From contig VGYC01000048.1 of the NCBI GenBank assembly GCA_016873095.1, forward strand, positions 1 through 42,209: a stretch of 42,209 bases of DNA, read 5' to 3'. This document shows positions 7,382 through 22,154 of this stretch, piece by piece. The notes beneath the pieces were generated by a model. The model did no database searches and was not told the DNA's origin. It was given only the letters and a program-made list of their open reading frames with translations. Source of the stretch: Planctomycetota bacterium (GTDB lineage: Bacteria > Planctomycetota > Planctomycetia > Gemmatales > Gemmataceae). Within the stretch, counting starts at the first letter, position 1. The number at the start of each line of letters is the position of its first letter. The position numbers were made by a program, and so were the translations under genes.

Positions 7382-8539
7382 TCAGGTGATCAGGTGCGCC
7401 CGCGACTCGTCGCGATGCTTTTTCAGGTAGGGCATGAAGGGTGTGCCGCCCGTACCCACGGATGTTGGGTTGGACAGGTCGTGCTGGCTCTGGTCATGGA
7501 TATAGGCGCCGGCATACTCAAGGTGCTTGCCGCGGAAATGGCTCACCCAGTTGACGCAGTCGTTGTACGCATGGACGAGTGCATACTCGTCGCGGCGCTG
7601 TTGCAGCACGAATTCGCGCAGGCCCGGGCCGGCGGCAAGATCGGCGATCAGCCGGCGATGCGGCGCCGGCATGTAGTCTTGCATCTCCAGCAGGTAGGCG
7701 CGCAGCGGATCGGCGGCGTGCTGGATGCCAAAGAGCGCGTCCAGGCATGGAATGATGCTGCTCTGGGCGCCCGTCTCGCCTCGGAAGAACTGCCCGCGGC
7801 CGGCGAACTCCTCGACGCCCTCGTAAACCAGGCCGTCGGGTAATGCTGGATTGTTCTTCCAGCCGTGGATGTACGGGCGCACGCGATGAAAGTAGATGTA
7901 CGGATCACAGTGTTCAGGCATGCGCGTCAAGACGCGAAAGATACTGTGCAGGCCTTGCGCCGCTGCTTCAAGCTGGCGGGTTGCGCCGGCGACGTCGTTC
8001 TGGGCTACGCAGCGCTGAGCTTCAATGGTCGCCGCAAGCATTGCTCCCGCTCGCGCTTCGATGGCCACGTGGATCAGGATGAACCATTCCTCGTCGATGC
8101 CACCCAGGAAATTCTGCAGCAGTGCAATGTTGCCGAGATCGATGGGCCCGGACGGGTCGAGCCGCTTCCAGTTGTGCAGGGCATAGGAAGCATAGGACAG
8201 CACCGGAGGCCGGCCGAGGCGGCGGGCGACGGCACACCAGGGCACGGCGAGTCCCGCGGGCAAGTGTGTCGCTACCGGCGTGCTCCCCCAGATATAAGCG
8301 TGTCCGAGATAGGAAAGCAGCAGCATCACCCGTTCCAGTTCGGGTGGCCTGCTCAGCCGCTCGATCGGCAACGCCGGCATCTGCTCCAGCCTCGGCCGCA
8401 ACTGAGTGCTCACCAGCAGCTTTGGCAGGTCACGGCCCAGGTCATCCAGGGCCTTGAATTCTGGCGGCAGCCGTTCGATGGGATCGGCAGCCGGCAGGAA
8501 GCCGCGCTCGGCATCGAAGCTGTAATCGGAAAGGTTCAT
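7382..8539 (-). CDS. Indoleamine 2,3-dioxygenase-like heme protein
   Basis: A 385-residue all-helical heme dioxygenase of the IDO family, which opens the indole ring of L-tryptophan with O2 to N-formylkynurenine, the first step of the kynurenine pathway. Seen: '[10 protein letters not shown]', '[13 protein letters not shown]', the distal/substrate part '[17 protein letters not shown]', '[11 protein letters not shown]', the proximal heme ligand in '[14 protein letters not shown]' (His339 by alignment with the mammalian SRH motif) and the signature '[17 protein letters not shown]'. The length fits the family. It starts 6 bp after the glycosyltransferase stop, so translation is likely coupled. 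No kynurenine formamidase, kynureninase or TDO gene is seen in this window. Some bacterial IDO-like proteins act on other indoles, so the substrate is uncertain. Confidence 0.9.
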
Positions 8540-13335: not shown

Positions 13336-13774
13336 AATGGATTCGTCCTGCAAAGGGACATCGCTTCGGGCGAACCGTCCTGTGACAGACCTCAGCGAAT
13401 ATTGTAGTCCGCCAGCGGGGCGACACGCCAGTCGAAATGAGGCAACAACTGCAAAAGAAGGGATGTTGGTCGCGCCCTGCTGTCTTCTTCAACATTCTGT
13501 TGAAGACGGCCAGGGCCCACTTAGCGCGCACCGGTTACGGGCCAGCGACCAGCCCATTGGCGACGTGCCCCGGTCGGGCACAAGATGGCGCGGTATCTCC
13601 GACGCTTGCGCAGGTTTCGGCCATGCCGCAACTTACCTGCCCTCCCCGGCTCTGCGGGCGCAGAAATTCCAGGACTCGCCGGCTTTGCCTGGCCAATCTG
13701 GGATGGAAACTCCCTTCGCGTCCGGGTATGTCTCGCGCCCTCAGGGGTAATCAGATAATCTGCGACGGACCAGG
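13336..13774. other. Divergent intergenic region with a short palindrome
   Basis: A 439-bp gap between the divergent transaldolase and peptidase-barrel genes. It contains a perfect 9-bp inverted repeat TCTTCAACA-TTC-TGTTGAAGA (13486-13506), a possible operator or hairpin. No convincing promoter hexamers, RNA gene or coding region was recognised. Open frames here lack family-like sequence. Confidence 0.5.
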
Positions 13775-16700
13775 ATGAGGCCAAGCCAAGTTTCGACGTG
13801 GCTGCTGCTCGGGTTGCCGATGCTGCTCTTTGCGGCTGGGTCGGCGATCGCGGGAGAACTGCCGCCCGGCCTGCCGCGCTACGACCTCGACATCAAGCTT
13901 GATCCGGCAAGACGGCTCGTCGAGGTACGCCAGCATGTTGTCTGGACGAACAAGGCGCGACGGCCGACCGGGCAAGCAGTTCTCAATGTGCATTCGCACT
14001 ACTCCATCCCGGACAAGGACGTCGGCTTTCTCGCCAAGACAGTCGAAATCCTCAGGCTGGCGCCGAGCGAGTCGTTGAGCTTCGATGGGCCGGCTTGCTC
14101 GATCCAGGACGTGGAGCTGGTGGCGATCAAATCCGCGGCCTGGGCGCCGCTTCGCCAGGCCGCCTTCCAGGAAGCAATCCCGTTGTTGAAGCCGAAGCCG
14201 CCGCCCAAAAGTCCCGGCAACAAGGAGGCGCCGTCCGTGGACGAGCCGGCGCTGCCTCCGCGCACCAAGTTGCCGCATCGCTTCCGCGATGACCGGCCGA
14301 CGACGCTGGTCATCGACCTGCCGCGCCAGGTCGGCCCCGGCGAGTCGGTGGCGTTCGAGTTGACGTTCAAGCTGGACATCCCGCAGAAGATGGGTCGCTG
14401 GGGAACCTGGGGTGGCGTGACGGTGCTGGCGCAATGGCTGCCCGTGATGTCCTTTTACGACGATCAGGGCTGGCAGGACGTGCCGTTCATCCCCTGGCAT
14501 CAGCCGTATTTCAACGAGGCCGGCATCTTTACCGCGAAGATCGTTCTCCCCACCAAACAGAAGCTGGCCTGCACCGGAACCATCGAGTCGGACAGGGATC
14601 TCGGCGACGGCTGGCGTGAGCTGCGCGTCGGCCAGGTTGCTGCGCGCGATTTCTCCATGGTCTGCTCGGAACGCTTCCAGGAGCACACGGACATGGCAGG
14701 TCGCGTCAAGGTTCGCTGTCTCGCCCTGCCGGAGCACGAGTTTTACGCCAAAGAGATGGTCAAGGTCGCCTGCGAGGCCATCCCGGCATACGAGCAGTGG
14801 TTCGGCCCGTATCCGTATCCGGAGTTCGACCTCGTGGAGGCATACTTCGGCTGGAACGGCAACGAGTGCGGCGGCATGGTCATGATCGACCAGCGCATCT
14901 TCTCCATGCCCCACGCCGGCCGCAACTACATCGACTACCTCGTCTCCCACGAGATCTGTCATCAGTGGTGGTACAACGTCGTCGGCACCAACGGCTACGC
15001 CGAGACATGGATGGACGAAGGACTGGCGACCTACTTCAGCCATCGCCTTACCAATCAAAAGCTGGGCCAGAACAATCAGCTGCTGACTTTTCCGAAAGGG
15101 CTGAGCTGGCTGCCGAACATCAACCGCGAGGACTTCCGCAGCTACGGCATGATGGGCGTCGTCGCCCGCGGGCAGGCCAAGCCGGTCGTGCAGCCCATGG
15201 AGAAGTTCGACAACCTCGTCAACCTCATGGGCATGACCTACGACCGCGGCAGCCGCATCGTCGGCATGATCGAGGAACGCATGGGCGAGGCCAACTTCAT
15301 GGACTTCATGAAGCAGACCTACAAGAAGCATCAGTTCGGCATCCTGCGCGTGGCCGACTTCCAGAAGGAGCTGGAGGAATACACCGGCCGGTCGTGGGAC
15401 GACTTCTTCCGGGGCTGGCTCTACAGCACCGGCATGTCCGAATGGTCCGTGGACAAGGTGGACCTGTCGTGTCCGACCGGGCCGCGCCGCTACCTGCCCG
15501 GCCATTGCAATCAGCCGACCAGGGCAACCATCCACCTTACCCAGAACGGCGAGTGCAACGAGCCGACGGTCCTCGGCTTCCGACTGGTCGGCGACGAGGG
15601 CTACCAGGTCCGCGTGCCCATCTTCCCCGAACTGCCGACGATGGAGGATGCCGAGAATGGCGCGCACGTTGAATCCATCCAGGAGCACGATGCCCGGGGC
15701 AAGATCATCACGAAAGTGAAGGTGGACATCACCTTGCCCAAGCCGCCGTCGCAGATCAGCGTCGACCCGGATCACGTGCTGATCGACAGCAACCTGCACA
15801 ACAATCACTGGCAGCCGGAATGCCGCTGGCGGTTCACGCCGCTGTACACGCAGCTCGAAGAGACGGACGTGACGGCCGCTTACGATCGCTGGAACTTCAT
15901 CTTCGGCCCGTGGTTTTACGGCTCGTCTTACAACAACCCGTGGTTCACGCGCTCGGCGATGGTGGGCGCGAGGGCTGGCGCCTATCGCACGCAGGAGTTC
16001 GACGGCGGCGCCTATGTCGCCCTGCGTTCCAACGACCGCAACATCATCGCCGGCGTCGATGCCCAGTGGGAGCACTTGCCCTGGGCCAACACGCAGCTCG
16101 GTCTGATCGTCGAGCAGAACCTTGCGACCCTGGGACCGGAGAACATCCCCAGCAGCCGGGCCGTGGCTTACGGCCGCTACATCTTCCTGCCGGGGACGAG
16201 CCTGTACCTGCCGCCGTTCGAGCACCTGGAGGTGTTCGCCGCCGTGCAGAATCGCAACCTGCCGTTGCCCAACGTGATCCCACCGGGGGCGCGGCTCTTC
16301 AACGAGCAGGCGCCGCTCGGCATCCACTACCACAAGTATCTGCTCACGCCGTACTGGGACCCCGAGGGTGGCTACGCACTCGACCTGACCTACGAGGGCG
16401 GTCTGCCGGTGTTCACCAACACGCCCGGCTTCAACATGGCCTTCGGGCAGTTTTCGTTCGTGAAGACGCCGCCGCGCTGGGCCCGCGATGCCTGGGACAA
16501 TCCCGCCTGGAACTGGCTGACCGGCGCGCGCTGGGCGTTTCGGGTCAACGGCGCCATGGCCGTGCCGTCCGACGGCCTGTTCTTCTCGCTGGGCGGCGGC
16601 GACAACTTCCGCGGCTTCGGCCTCAATCAACGCCAGGGTTCGGCGACCTGGGTCGCCTCCGCCGAATGGCGGCTGCCCGTGTTCCAGAACGTGAACCTGG

Positions 16701-16942
16701 ACATGTGCGACCATTTTGCCCGGCTGCGCACCGTCTACATGGTCCCGTTCTACGACGTCGGCAACGCCTACTTCCGCTGGAACGCGCTCGGCCCGCTGGC
16801 CCAGGCCGTCGGCGTCGGCCTGCGACTGGACGTGACGTGGGTCGGCCTCATCGAACGCACGATGCTGCGGCTAGACGTGGCCCAAAGCGTCAGCGAGAAC
16901 GCACCCACGCAGTTCTGGTTCGGCGTCCAGCACCCGTTCTAG
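13775..16942 (+). CDS. Secreted M1-type zinc peptidase fused to an Omp85-like outer-membrane barrel
   Basis: A 1055-residue protein with a signal peptide (LLLGLPMLLFAAGSAIA, cleavage near residue 26). Residues about 30-600 form an M1 peptidase: zinc motif HEICH (392-396), then exactly 18 residues, then the third ligand Glu415 in 'WMDEGLATYF', and Tyr489 in 'MTYDRGSRIVGMIEERMG' as the expected transition-state tyrosine. The usual GxMEN substrate motif reads CGGMVM, so the amine-binding Glu is absent. Residues about 650-1055 look like a 16-strand bacterial surface antigen barrel: 'GGGDNFRGFG' (940-949) matches the RGF/RGY loop-6 motif of Omp85 proteins, followed by 'ASAEWRLPVF', 'YMVPFYDVGNAYF', 'QAVGVGLRLDV' and a final beta-strand ending in Phe. 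This suggests surface- or periplasm-tethered proteolysis. The gene is monocistronic. Confidence 0.85.
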   Translation: MRPSQVSTWLLLGLPMLLFAAGSAIAGELPPGLPRYDLDIKLDPARRLVEVRQHVVWTNKARRPTGQAVLNVHSHYSIPDKDVGFLAKTVEILRLAPSESLSFDGPACSIQDVELVAIKSAAWAPLRQAAFQEAIPLLKPKPPPKSPGNKEAPSVDEPALPPRTKLPHRFRDDRPTTLVIDLPRQVGPGESVAFELTFKLDIPQKMGRWGTWGGVTVLAQWLPVMSFYDDQGWQDVPFIPWHQPYFNEAGIFTAKIVLPTKQKLACTGTIESDRDLGDGWRELRVGQVAARDFSMVCSERFQEHTDMAGRVKVRCLALPEHEFYAKEMVKVACEAIPAYEQWFGPYPYPEFDLVEAYFGWNGNECGGMVMIDQRIFSMPHAGRNYIDYLVSHEICHQWWYNVVGTNGYAETWMDEGLATYFSHRLTNQKLGQNNQLLTFPKGLSWLPNINREDFRSYGMMGVVARGQAKPVVQPMEKFDNLVNLMGMTYDRGSRIVGMIEERMGEANFMDFMKQTYKKHQFGILRVADFQKELEEYTGRSWDDFFRGWLYSTGMSEWSVDKVDLSCPTGPRRYLPGHCNQPTRATIHLTQNGECNEPTVLGFRLVGDEGYQVRVPIFPELPTMEDAENGAHVESIQEHDARGKIITKVKVDITLPKPPSQISVDPDHVLIDSNLHNNHWQPECRWRFTPLYTQLEETDVTAAYDRWNFIFGPWFYGSSYNNPWFTRSAMVGARAGAYRTQEFDGGAYVALRSNDRNIIAGVDAQWEHLPWANTQLGLIVEQNLATLGPENIPSSRAVAYGRYIFLPGTSLYLPPFEHLEVFAAVQNRNLPLPNVIPPGARLFNEQAPLGIHYHKYLLTPYWDPEGGYALDLTYEGGLPVFTNTPGFNMAFGQFSFVKTPPRWARDAWDNPAWNWLTGARWAFRVNGAMAVPSDGLFFSLGGGDNFRGFGLNQRQGSATWVASAEWRLPVFQNVNLDMCDHFARLRTVYMVPFYDVGNAYFRWNALGPLAQAVGVGLRLDVTWVGLIERTMLRLDVAQSVSENAPTQFWFGVQHPF

Positions 16943-17580: not shown

Positions 17581-17656
17581 ATCCGGGTGGTGGATCGCGG
17601 CGGAACTGGCTGACGGCAAGTAACGTGTCTGTAGTGCATCTTGCAGAGGTCATGTG

Positions 17657-18526
17657 ATGACCGGCCGACAAAGGACCGCGCAGCGCGGCGCTACATTGAT
17701 CGAAGTCATTCTCGTGATCGCTATCGTCGCAATCCTGTCGGCGATGTTAATGGTGGCGGTGCAAGTTGTGCGCGAGGCTGCATATCGCACCGAGAGTATG
17801 AACAATCTCCGGCAGATTGCGATTGCCACCCAGAGTTTCGCCGCGGAGCGGCGCGGGTTGCTGCCGACCGTGTACGGTGATGATACAGGTCCCAATCCCC
17901 ACATGTCTGTCTTCACTGCGTTGCTTCCTTACCTTGAACGCTGGGAGGGTGAACTGTTACCCGCTCATGTGCGTACGTTCCTGAACCCCGCCGACCCGAC
18001 CATTGTCCCCCATCGCGAGCATTTGACCAGTTACGCGGCCAACGCCCAGGTCTTTCGGACTGGTGGCTCGTTGGCCTCAACCTTCCGTGATGGAATTTCT
18101 CATACGATTGCGTTCGCGGAGCACTACGCCATCTGCAAGCGCTGCGACACGCTCGGGGGCAATGCACTGATAACCGAGTTCAGTTATTGGCCGTGGGAAT
18201 GGTCGTCACCGCTGCGCCGTCCGACGTTTGCAGATGGTGGACCAGCATGGGGCGGTGATGTTTACCCGGTGACCAGCGGATTCCCACCCAAGAGCATTGG
18301 CAGCGGCTTGCTGCCCTCTCGGACATTTCAGGCTCGTCCGCCGGCGGATGGTTGCAACCCGATGACTGATTGCGATCCTCATCTGGCGCAGACGCCGCAC
18401 AGGGAAGGTATGCTAGCGGCCTTGGGCGACGCCAGCGTTCGTATCCTGGCGCCAACGATGTCACCAAACACCTACTGGGGAGCTGTGACGCCAAATCGAG
18501 GTGAGTTGCTCGGAAGCGACTGGTGA
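17657..18526 (+). CDS. DUF1559 pseudopilin-like protein (first copy)
   Basis: A 289-residue type II pseudopilin-like protein of the planctomycete-expanded DUF1559 family. The type IV prepilin signal is present: a short basic leader, RGATLIEV (cleavage after G, Glu at +5), and a hydrophobic helix 'VILVIAIVAILSAMLMVAV'. The family features 'REAAYRTESMNNLRQIAIATQSFA' and 'TFRDGISHTIAFAEHYA' follow, with the C-terminal 'HREGMLAALGDASVRIL..TYWGAVTPNRGELLGSDW'. Such proteins are thought to assemble into or with pilus-like secretion machinery, but their function is unknown. The ATG at 17657 is preferred over the adjacent GTG (17654) because GAGG lies 7 nt upstream. A terminator-like hairpin follows at 18621. 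Confidence 0.9.
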   Translation: MTGRQRTAQRGATLIEVILVIAIVAILSAMLMVAVQVVREAAYRTESMNNLRQIAIATQSFAAERRGLLPTVYGDDTGPNPHMSVFTALLPYLERWEGELLPAHVRTFLNPADPTIVPHREHLTSYAANAQVFRTGGSLASTFRDGISHTIAFAEHYAICKRCDTLGGNALITEFSYWPWEWSSPLRRPTFADGGPAWGGDVYPVTSGFPPKSIGSGLLPSRTFQARPPADGCNPMTDCDPHLAQTPHREGMLAALGDASVRILAPTMSPNTYWGAVTPNRGELLGSDW

Positions 18527-18726: not shown

Positions 18727-20904
18727 ATGCCGCTTTACCTGTTGCTCGCGGTGTTTCCGGGCGGAGCAAACGATCTGCGCATCGACGCCGACCGGACCGG
18801 GCAAAAGGTGACGGTCAGCGCACGACTGCCCGCTGCCGCCACGTTGCCTGAGGGCCAGGTCAAGGCCGCGGATGGCGAGCGCTGGCTGCGGTTCTGTCTG
18901 GTGGATGGCAAGCGTGAGGGCCCGCCCATCCTGGGAACCTACCAGCGGCGCCAGCGCGAGTTGACCTTCGTCCCTCGCTTTGCCTTGCAGCCCGGCAAGA
19001 AGTATCGCGCTTACCTCGGCCTGGAGGACAAGGAGACGAAGTCGCTGGAGTATCGCGTCCCGGAGCGAGCCGCCACCGCGCCGGCTGCCGTGGCCAGGAT
19101 CTATCCCAGTGCCGATGTCCTGCCGGCCAACCATCTGCGCTTCTTCATCCACTTCTCCGCTCCCATGCGCGGCGGCAAGGACATCTTCGACCAGATTCGC
19201 ATCCTGGATGCCCAGGGCAACGCCGTTGACGATCCCTGGCTGCGCGACGAACTCTGGGACGAATCCGGCAAGCTGCTCATCCTCTACATCCATCCCGGCC
19301 GCATCAAGTGGGACGTGCTGCTGCGCCTCATCTACGGGCCCGTGCTCGAACCCGACCAGGAATACACGCTGGTGCTGTCCGCCGACATGCTCGACGCCAA
19401 TGGCCAGCGGCTCGGCAAGGAGTATCGCAAGAAGTTCCGCACCACCGCCGAGCACCGCGCCCGGGTGGCCGTGGACGACTGGCGCATCAAGCCGCCCCAC
19501 GCCGGCGGCAACGGGCCCGTCATCGTGTCGTTCCCGAAGATCATGGACCACAGCTCGCTCGATCGCTACCTGTCCGTGCGCGACGACAAGGGGCAAGCGC
19601 TGGCGGGGAAGATCGACATCGGCCGCGATGAGAAGACATGGTTCTTCACGCCGGCGCAGCCGTGGACCGCGGGGACTTACACGCTCGTCATCGACGAACG
19701 CCTCGAAGACACGGCCGGCAACACGCCCCTGCGGCCATTCGACCTGGATCCGAAGACGCCGAAATTGCCACCGCAGAGATTGCAGCGCGAGTTCCGGGCG
19801 ACGTCCAATCCTCGCGGCTTTCGCTTCTCCGAGATCATGGTGATCGTGTACGCCGATTTTCCGAAGGAGCCGGAGCATCAGCTGGCGCTGGCGAAATACA
19901 CCGCCAGCAAGGGATTCAATTGCGTCGAGGCCGAACTGGACAAGCTTGAAGTCTGCCGTCAGGCCGGTCTCAAGGTGCGGCTGGGGAGCAACGACGTCGG
20001 CAAGCTGCTCCGGGCCGCGCCGAAGCTGAAGGACGACCCGGCCGTGCTGGGCTACTTCATCTCGGACCGGCGCACGCGCTCGGCCTTTCCCGGCTTCGCG
20101 CGGACTGCCCGCGCCTTCGAGGCTGCCGATCCCAATCATCCGACGCTGTTCATCAACCGCGCCGAATACAACCAGTTTCCCGAATTCGTCGAGGTCGTCA
20201 AGCCGATGGTGCTCGACTACTACCACTATCACTGGTGGCACAAGAACCATCCGGAGCGCTACTACCTCTACCTGAGCATGTTTCGCGACCTGAGCGTCAA
20301 GCACGGCATTCCGCAGATGCGCTGCCTGGGGTCAAACAATCCGCCCGAGAAGATCCGCCAGTCGATGTACGTGGCCCTGGCCTATGGCGTGCAGGCATTG
20401 CACTTCTGGCCGCCATGGTTCGTCACCTGCAAGCTGAACAAGGACCGTGGCGCCGTGCTGGAAGACGGCAAGCCGGTCTTCGGTCTCAGCGACGCCGGCA
20501 AGGCCGTCTCCGAGATCGCCCGCGAGCTGAAGGCTCTCGGGCCGGTCCTCGTCAAGCTGCAAAACCTGGCCGTCTATCATACCGACAAGACGCTCCCGCT
20601 CGGAGCCCGGCGCGCGCCGGACGACCTCTGGTTCCAGCCGGAAGGCGAGTCGTTCCTCGTCGGCATCTTCCATGATGCCGACAACAACCGCTACCTGATG
20701 CCGGTGAACCATGGCGTGGACAGGACGCGTGAACTGAAACTGCGCTTCCGGGAAAAACTCACCCTGGAAATGTGCGATCGCACGACGGCGGCATGGCGGA
20801 CGCTTGCGCTGACCGAGACCAACGGCCAGCACGCATGCCGGCTGAAGCTGGCGCCCGGCGACGGCGCGTTGCTGCGCGTCAAGGGAGATCCATCGGCTCG
20901 ATGA
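18727..20904 (+). CDS. Ig-like (Big_5/SbsA-type) plus TIM-barrel-like protein
   Basis: A 725-residue protein, possibly exported through a short N-terminal hydrophobic stretch (LYLLLAVFPGG). Residues about 120-240 and 245-360 read as two SbsA-like Ig domains ('ARIYPSADVLPANHLRFFIHFSAPM', 'YTLVLSADMLDANGQRL', 'WTAGTYTLVIDERLEDTAGN'). Residues about 370-610 have beta/alpha-barrel-like alternation ('KGFNCVEAELDKLEVCRQAGLKV', 'GYFISDRR', 'VVKPMVLDYYHYHWW', 'IRQSMYVALAYGVQALHFWPPW'), resembling glycoside-hydrolase-like domains. The end (about 630-725) is a small beta-domain with 'LAPGDGALLRV', common at the C-terminus of glycosidases. A carbohydrate-active role is likely but no catalytic acid pair could be assigned. 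GAGG 5 nt before the ATG supports the start. Confidence 0.65.
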   Translation: MPLYLLLAVFPGGANDLRIDADRTGQKVTVSARLPAAATLPEGQVKAADGERWLRFCLVDGKREGPPILGTYQRRQRELTFVPRFALQPGKKYRAYLGLEDKETKSLEYRVPERAATAPAAVARIYPSADVLPANHLRFFIHFSAPMRGGKDIFDQIRILDAQGNAVDDPWLRDELWDESGKLLILYIHPGRIKWDVLLRLIYGPVLEPDQEYTLVLSADMLDANGQRLGKEYRKKFRTTAEHRARVAVDDWRIKPPHAGGNGPVIVSFPKIMDHSSLDRYLSVRDDKGQALAGKIDIGRDEKTWFFTPAQPWTAGTYTLVIDERLEDTAGNTPLRPFDLDPKTPKLPPQRLQREFRATSNPRGFRFSEIMVIVYADFPKEPEHQLALAKYTASKGFNCVEAELDKLEVCRQAGLKVRLGSNDVGKLLRAAPKLKDDPAVLGYFISDRRTRSAFPGFARTARAFEAADPNHPTLFINRAEYNQFPEFVEVVKPMVLDYYHYHWWHKNHPERYYLYLSMFRDLSVKHGIPQMRCLGSNNPPEKIRQSMYVALAYGVQALHFWPPWFVTCKLNKDRGAVLEDGKPVFGLSDAGKAVSEIARELKALGPVLVKLQNLAVYHTDKTLPLGARRAPDDLWFQPEGESFLVGIFHDADNNRYLMPVNHGVDRTRELKLRFREKLTLEMCDRTTAAWRTLALTETNGQHACRLKLAPGDGALLRVKGDPSAR

Positions 20905-21191: not shown

Positions 21192-22004
21192 CTACCAGTC
21201 GATTCCCAACAGGTCCCCGCTTGATGGCGTGACTGCCGACCAGTACGTGGACGGTGAAATTGACGGCGACAGGATGCGCACACTCGCGTCGGCAAGGGCG
21301 ACCAGCATGCCGGCCGAGTGGGGCGTCTGTGCCAGTGCAAAACTACACTTGGATTTAGGCGGGGCTACTTGAAATGTCTGTGTGCCATAGCTTGGTCCCG
21401 TTTGTACTGGATTCCCGGAGCTGACTGGAACAACATCGCCAGCGTCGGCAAACGTCGCGCGGCGCATTCCTCCTAACCCTGCTGATTGGCCGAGGAAAGG
21501 CAAGTACATTGTGCCATTGCAGTCGTAGGCATAGTGCTCTGCGAAGCCTATCGTGTTGGAAGTTCCATCTTGAAAAGTGACCGGTAAGCGCGCATTGCCC
21601 TGGTACGCTTGCGCGTTGGCAGCATAGCTCGCTACAGCGAGGTCTTTGGCGAGTGCTTCGGCCGCCGTCGGGTCAGCGGGGCTCAGGTCCAGTTGAATTG
21701 CAAAGGTTCCTAGCTTCTTGGTCATCTGTTTGACAGCGTTTTCTTGGTCCAGATACGGCAATATTGAAAAAAATAGAGGTTTCCGAAAAGTGTTTGACCC
21801 GTCGATAGTAGGCAACGCCTGGTGATGATTGGCGGCAAACGATTGGACGCCCAAGCTGATCTGGCGGAGGTTGTTCTTACTGTGCGTCATCAGCCCAGCT
21901 TCGCGGACCTTCTGCACTGCGGGGATCAACAGTGCGAGAAGGACCGCGATGATCGCCAGGACTACGAGCAACTCAATCAGCGTCATGCCGGTGCGCTTGC
22001 TCAT
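21192..22004 (-). CDS. DUF1559 pseudopilin-like protein (second copy)
   Basis: A 270-residue DUF1559 protein with a canonical prepilin N-terminus: [14 protein letters not shown] (cleavage after G, Glu at +5) and the helix '[17 protein letters not shown]', then '[26 protein letters not shown]'. The family's middle '[17 protein letters not shown]' and C-terminal '[35 protein letters not shown]' are present. It clearly pairs with the copy at 17657 but is diverged and encoded on the other strand. The ATG at 22004 has AAGGA 8 nt upstream. Its codon use looks more AT-rich than that of its neighbours, and a 20-bp direct repeat flanks it, so separate acquisition is possible. Confidence 0.9.
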
Positions 22005-22154
22005 GTGCCGATCCTTGACTGAAAACAATGAAGAGTAGAAAACAATCAATAACGTATCGCTGTCATCCAATGCTTGCAAGGGCACTTGGCCTTGGCCGAT
22101 TGACGCTCGGAACGTCCCGATTTCTCAGGCGTGGTCCAGCGCGGCTGCTGCCGC

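Follow-up and report, generated by a model that had tools for sequence, protein, structure and literature searches.

Can a zinc peptidase of the M1 family and an outer-membrane barrel of the Omp85 type be joined in one polypeptide, and if so, where would the enzyme reside and what would it do? The question arises in a 42,209-nucleotide stretch of planctomycete DNA (hereafter the window), where an open reading frame at 13775-16942 on the forward strand runs uninterrupted for 1055 codons from its ATG. An earlier note on this DNA had read it as a single-frame fusion of the two modules, and this reading held, as full-length homologs with the same domain order occur in dozens of genomes. An assembly chimera was rejected on the same ground. 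The antisense ORF at 13751-16714 (987 aa) was treated as a shadow ORF, because the antisense frames of relatives differ in length and are often broken. The gene is composed of the following parts:

13775..16942, + strand: complete M1-Omp85 fusion gene, 1055 aa (open frame and full-length homologs)
13775..13852, + strand: signal peptide (protein start MRPSQVSTWLLLGLPMLLFAAGSAIA), cleavage likely after AIA (residue 26; from sequence)
13859..14761, + strand: N-terminal domain of the M1 module, approximately residues 29-329 (limits inferred)
14765..15418, + strand: M1 catalytic domain, residues 331-548 (Pfam match, motifs, alignment to structures)
15437..15814, + strand: probable beta-sandwich resembling M1 domain III, approximately residues 555-680 (position, conservation, low-confidence beta-rich prediction)
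15830..16939, + strand: Omp85-type barrel region, residues 686-1055 (profile matches, motifs, strand periodicity)

Judging from its sequence, the protein starts with a Sec-type signal peptide that is likely cleaved, and a lipobox-like motif was found in none of 46 family members. The N-terminal domain of the M1 module contains a Pro/Lys-rich variable stretch (around residues 130-170), and structures of M1 aminopeptidases align with the A1 profile (46 rows) from profile position 191 on. Peptidase_M1 (Pfam PF01433) matches residues 331-548 (E 1.3e-20; 74.4 bits, above the cut-off of 27.7) and was detected in all 46 aligned members at E<=0.01, while no patatin domain of Pfam matched the window protein, which carries M1 in its place. 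The active site is complete, as had been claimed: the zinc site HEICH-x18-E occupies residues 392-415, and H392, E393, H396 and E415 are accompanied by the catalytic Tyr489, the full set being kept in 62 of the 67 sequences. In M1 aminopeptidases the Glu of the GxMEN motif binds the substrate amino terminus. The equivalent in the window protein is NGNEC, of which, in the profile alignment, Glu (E364) is aligned and Met and Asn are not; E364 is retained in 63/67 sequences, as in aminopeptidases. We also considered GGMVM at 366-370 as a broken GAMEN motif and rejected it, since in the profile alignment it is NGNEC that corresponds to GAMEN, with the Glu preserved. Strong constraint on the protein is indicated by dN/dS values of 0.05-0.15 between intact relatives, and the M1 module would, on its conserved residues, be an active peptidase. 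The linker to the barrel had been thought to follow the peptidase domain directly, which needs a small correction: between the catalytic domain and the barrel there is a conserved stretch (about 555-680), with invariant D664 and P665, that probably corresponds to domain III, the beta-sandwich, of M1 enzymes.

By profile homology, residues 686-1055 belong to the Omp85 superfamily, so the C-terminal part had been assigned to the right type, and its extent, given before as about 400 residues, is closer to 370. The NCBIfam profile Omp85_fam (NF047779) matches 863-1055 up to the last profile position (E 4e-8), scoring 33 bits where the cut-off, one set for a subfamily, is 200, and at E<=0.01 it was found in 36/46 aligned members. 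A check against Pfam profiles had been proposed earlier; Peptidase_M1 passed its threshold, whereas Omp85 (PF01103) reached 15 bits in the window protein, below the cut-off of 24, and matched 27 of the 46 aligned members at E<=0.01. A further match came from hhalign, in which 40 barrels of the family were compared with eight Omp85 barrels, BamA-like or related, from the phylum (98.7% probability, E 1.9e-16); it spans the C-terminal half of Omp85, where the RGF loop and the strands with E-x-R-x-P and F-x-D-x-G lie. When solved structures were searched with the barrel profile, the top hit was the POTRA-domain protein 9ccg (E 1.4e-4), followed by TamA at a non-significant E of 0.21.

Individual motifs agree with this assignment. 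FRGF, the loop-6 [VF]RG[FY] motif, is located at 945-948, i.e. 107 residues before the C-terminal end, where the earlier note had estimated about 110; R946 is invariant (67/67), and the flanking residues vary, e.g. LRAL in one family. Further on lie E964-W-R966-x-P (R966 in 67/67, E964 in 66/67) and F992-Y-D994-V-G996 (D994 in 67/67), and the region ends with W1048-x-G1050...F1055, a terminal aromatic. Stretches of alternating hydrophobicity number 18 in the barrel region compared with 13.7 +/- 1.8 in shuffled sequences (18 was reached by 8 of 500 shuffles), and the catalytic domain gave no such excess; this periodicity is in keeping with a closed barrel of 16 strands. Structure prediction was run from two sequences (window and L031) in place of a deep alignment and was discarded at a mean pLDDT of 30; for that reason closure of the barrel at 686-1055, which we expect, is deduced from homology. 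As had been noted, there is no POTRA domain, none being detected by Pfam in the 46 aligned members at E<=0.01.

The same two-domain order had been suggested as something to look for in other genomes, and it was found: 55 of 59 related genomes match the window protein, mostly over the full length, and identity within the order is 41-58%. In the class sample (297 genomes, in which contig ends or the alignment split some full-length copies in two), full-length copies are present in most sampled genomes of the family and order to which the window belongs, in 7/7 genomes of the sister family and in roughly half of those listed for a third family; two further families have them in some members. When the barrel profile was run against 118 genomes of the class, strong matches were confined to frames of the M1-Omp85 family; a few short frames were partial copies of that family, and two other matches were weak (E ~1e-4). 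Within the class Planctomycetia this barrel type was thus seen only behind an M1 domain, and in the M1 tree the fusions of Planctomycetia form one group with support of 99/100. The fusion was not found on viral contigs, and the plasmid matches listed cover the M1 part alone (<=45% of the query). Among 40 loci we found no conserved operon, the biggest neighbour cluster comprising 7 loci at scattered positions, and no neighbour gene linking the fusion to OMP assembly. Other genes of the window include an indoleamine 2,3-dioxygenase homolog, here in a planctomycete (7382-8539, - strand; PF01231, E 4.6e-101), two DUF1559 proteins with an N-terminal methylation motif (17654-18526, + strand; 21192-22085, - strand), and a protein of 725 residues (18727-20904, + strand) that carries a Big_5 bacterial Ig-like domain and weakly matches MG1 of alpha-2-macroglobulin. 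The DUF1559 family is expanded in planctomycetes.

Five of the 67 sequences are paralogs without the active site, four with QATCH (L008, L037, L038, L039) and one with EQVAQ (L071). In both genomes with a dead copy that were checked, G016 and G035, an intact copy is present as well (L069 and L010). Between the four QATCH copies dN/dS is 0.07-0.17, close to the values of intact pairs, so these copies are maintained; since four dead paralogs are under purifying selection, catalysis is not the sole conserved role, and their retention favours an additional, receptor-like function.

Run against the rest of the phylum, the A1 profile brings up numerous M1 proteins that lack a barrel. Outside the window's class it also picks out L131 (3346-6225, - strand), L130 (27-3326, + strand) and L132 (2730-7646, + strand), which combine an M1-like N-terminal region devoid of HExxH with an Omp85-type barrel; long branches make the position of L130 and L131 in the M1 tree unreliable. 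Eight more proteins (L126, L127, L129, L134, L135, L137, L138, L140), partly scanned against Pfam and otherwise judged by sequence, carry, ahead of a PD40 propeller and the Omp85 barrel, a domain that is Peptidase_MA-like or degenerate and in some of them has HExxH. In L127 (2945-5884, - strand), L140 (2160-5027, + strand), L135 (2389-5382, + strand) and L126 (1851-4775, + strand) the peptidase-like motif reads HEFTH, HELAH or HEYAH, or is lost. Together with the dead M1-Omp85 fusions, these proteins make the association of a peptidase fold with Omp85 a recurring theme in the phylum.

How does the fusion compare with known systems? The earlier note named no M1 counterpart, and we found no description of one in the literature searched, which is weak evidence as few subscription journals and preprints were covered. 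Heinz and Lithgow (2014) distinguished ten Omp85/TpsB subfamilies, among them an Omp85-metalloprotease ('Metallo') subfamily defined by PF00149 and not by M1, and their text on the WD40-Omp85 subfamily does not mention a peptidase domain (PMC4104836). The Metallo proteins share with the fusion an N-terminal metal enzyme and a barrel without POTRA, and differ from it in the enzyme domain. We take PF00149 to be the calcineurin-like phosphoesterase family, and the label 'metalloprotease' looks misnamed. The Peptidase_MA-like/PD40/Omp85 proteins fit the WD40-Omp85 subfamily, which likewise has the Omp85 barrel but places a PD40 beta-propeller between it and a peptidase-like domain of a family other than M1. 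PlpD and other patatin-Omp85 proteins (former type Vd) resemble the fusion in having a signal peptide, an N-terminal enzyme and a C-terminal Omp85 barrel in a single chain; their enzyme, however, is a patatin phospholipase and one POTRA separates it from the barrel. With M1 aminopeptidases (PSA, ERAP, LTA4H and short bacterial M1) the fusion shares the catalytic domain and its residues, but it has an outer-membrane barrel in the place that a helical C-terminal domain occupies in many of these enzymes. The nearest working analogy, and only an analogy, is BepA (M48) at BamA, also a periplasmic zinc peptidase paired with an Omp85 barrel, although as two separate proteins and with another peptidase family.

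We favour, at a probability of roughly 0.5, the reading of the fusion as an outer-membrane-anchored zinc peptidase facing the periplasm. Sec would export the protein, BAM would insert its last 370 residues as an Omp85-type barrel, and the M1 module, attached to the first strand of the barrel, would hang on the periplasmic side of the outer membrane, trimming or clearing peptides, probably of unfolded or stalled envelope proteins. The periplasmic orientation is deduced from general Omp85 topology, from the size of the module, as a folded domain of ~640 residues ahead of strand 1 should stay periplasmic, and from PlpD, whose patatin domain was found on re-examination to be exclusively periplasmic (PMC11116518). 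A role in envelope quality control is suggested by analogy with BepA, YcaL and LoiP, metallopeptidases that act in OMP quality control at the BAM step (PMC13067283). Counted against the peptidase reading are the low-confidence structure prediction, which shows no closed barrel, the scores of the window protein under the curated Omp85 cut-offs, the lack of an OMP-assembly neighbour and the conservation of the dead paralogs.

The last of these points speaks for a rival explanation, in which the barrel itself would assemble or translocate a client and the M1 module would replace POTRA as a periplasmic receptor, sometimes also cutting the client. Most of the Omp85 members studied function in assembling or moving proteins (PMC4104836), the four barrel residues R946, R966, D994 and E964 are almost without exception conserved, and not only the constrained dead paralogs but also the dead relatives L130, L131 and L132 of other classes point to a non-catalytic role. 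We nevertheless regard this as a possible but rather doubtful explanation, as POTRA is absent, no conserved client gene adjoins, and the great majority of sequences retain the complete catalytic set. About as doubtful is the reading as an undescribed Omp85 subfamily in which M1 would replace POTRA, client recognition and proteolysis would be united in one chain, and the dead duplicates would serve as pure client receptors.

The earlier note had left open a self-translocating or a barrel-tethered protease, and it is the tethered form that we favour. Transport of the M1 domain to the surface by its own barrel, giving an exposed or released nutritional peptidase, parallels the layout of PlpD in its original description (Salacha et al., as cited in PMC4104836) and might suit a polymer-degrading planctomycete; we consider it improbable, given that the PlpD enzyme was later assigned to the periplasm and that passage through a 16-strand barrel is difficult for a folded enzyme of large size. 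That the C-terminal region is a soluble beta-rich domain, Omp85-like in sequence only and forming no transmembrane barrel, would accord with the sub-threshold scores and the poor structure prediction, yet the profile-profile match across the C-terminal half of Omp85, the family-wide Omp85 matches, the terminal aromatic and the strand periodicity leave it very little credit.

Only few enzyme-Omp85 fusions are known, and what they are for is a matter of dispute. The conserved M1 peptidase fusion offers a second case in which one can test the claim, put forward for PlpD, that Omp85 barrels were reused as anchors for periplasm-facing enzymes, and the intact and dead pairs within one genome (L069 with L008, L010 with L071) allow catalytic and non-catalytic roles to be separated. 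The fusion also bears on the outer membrane of planctomycetes, which has been little studied.
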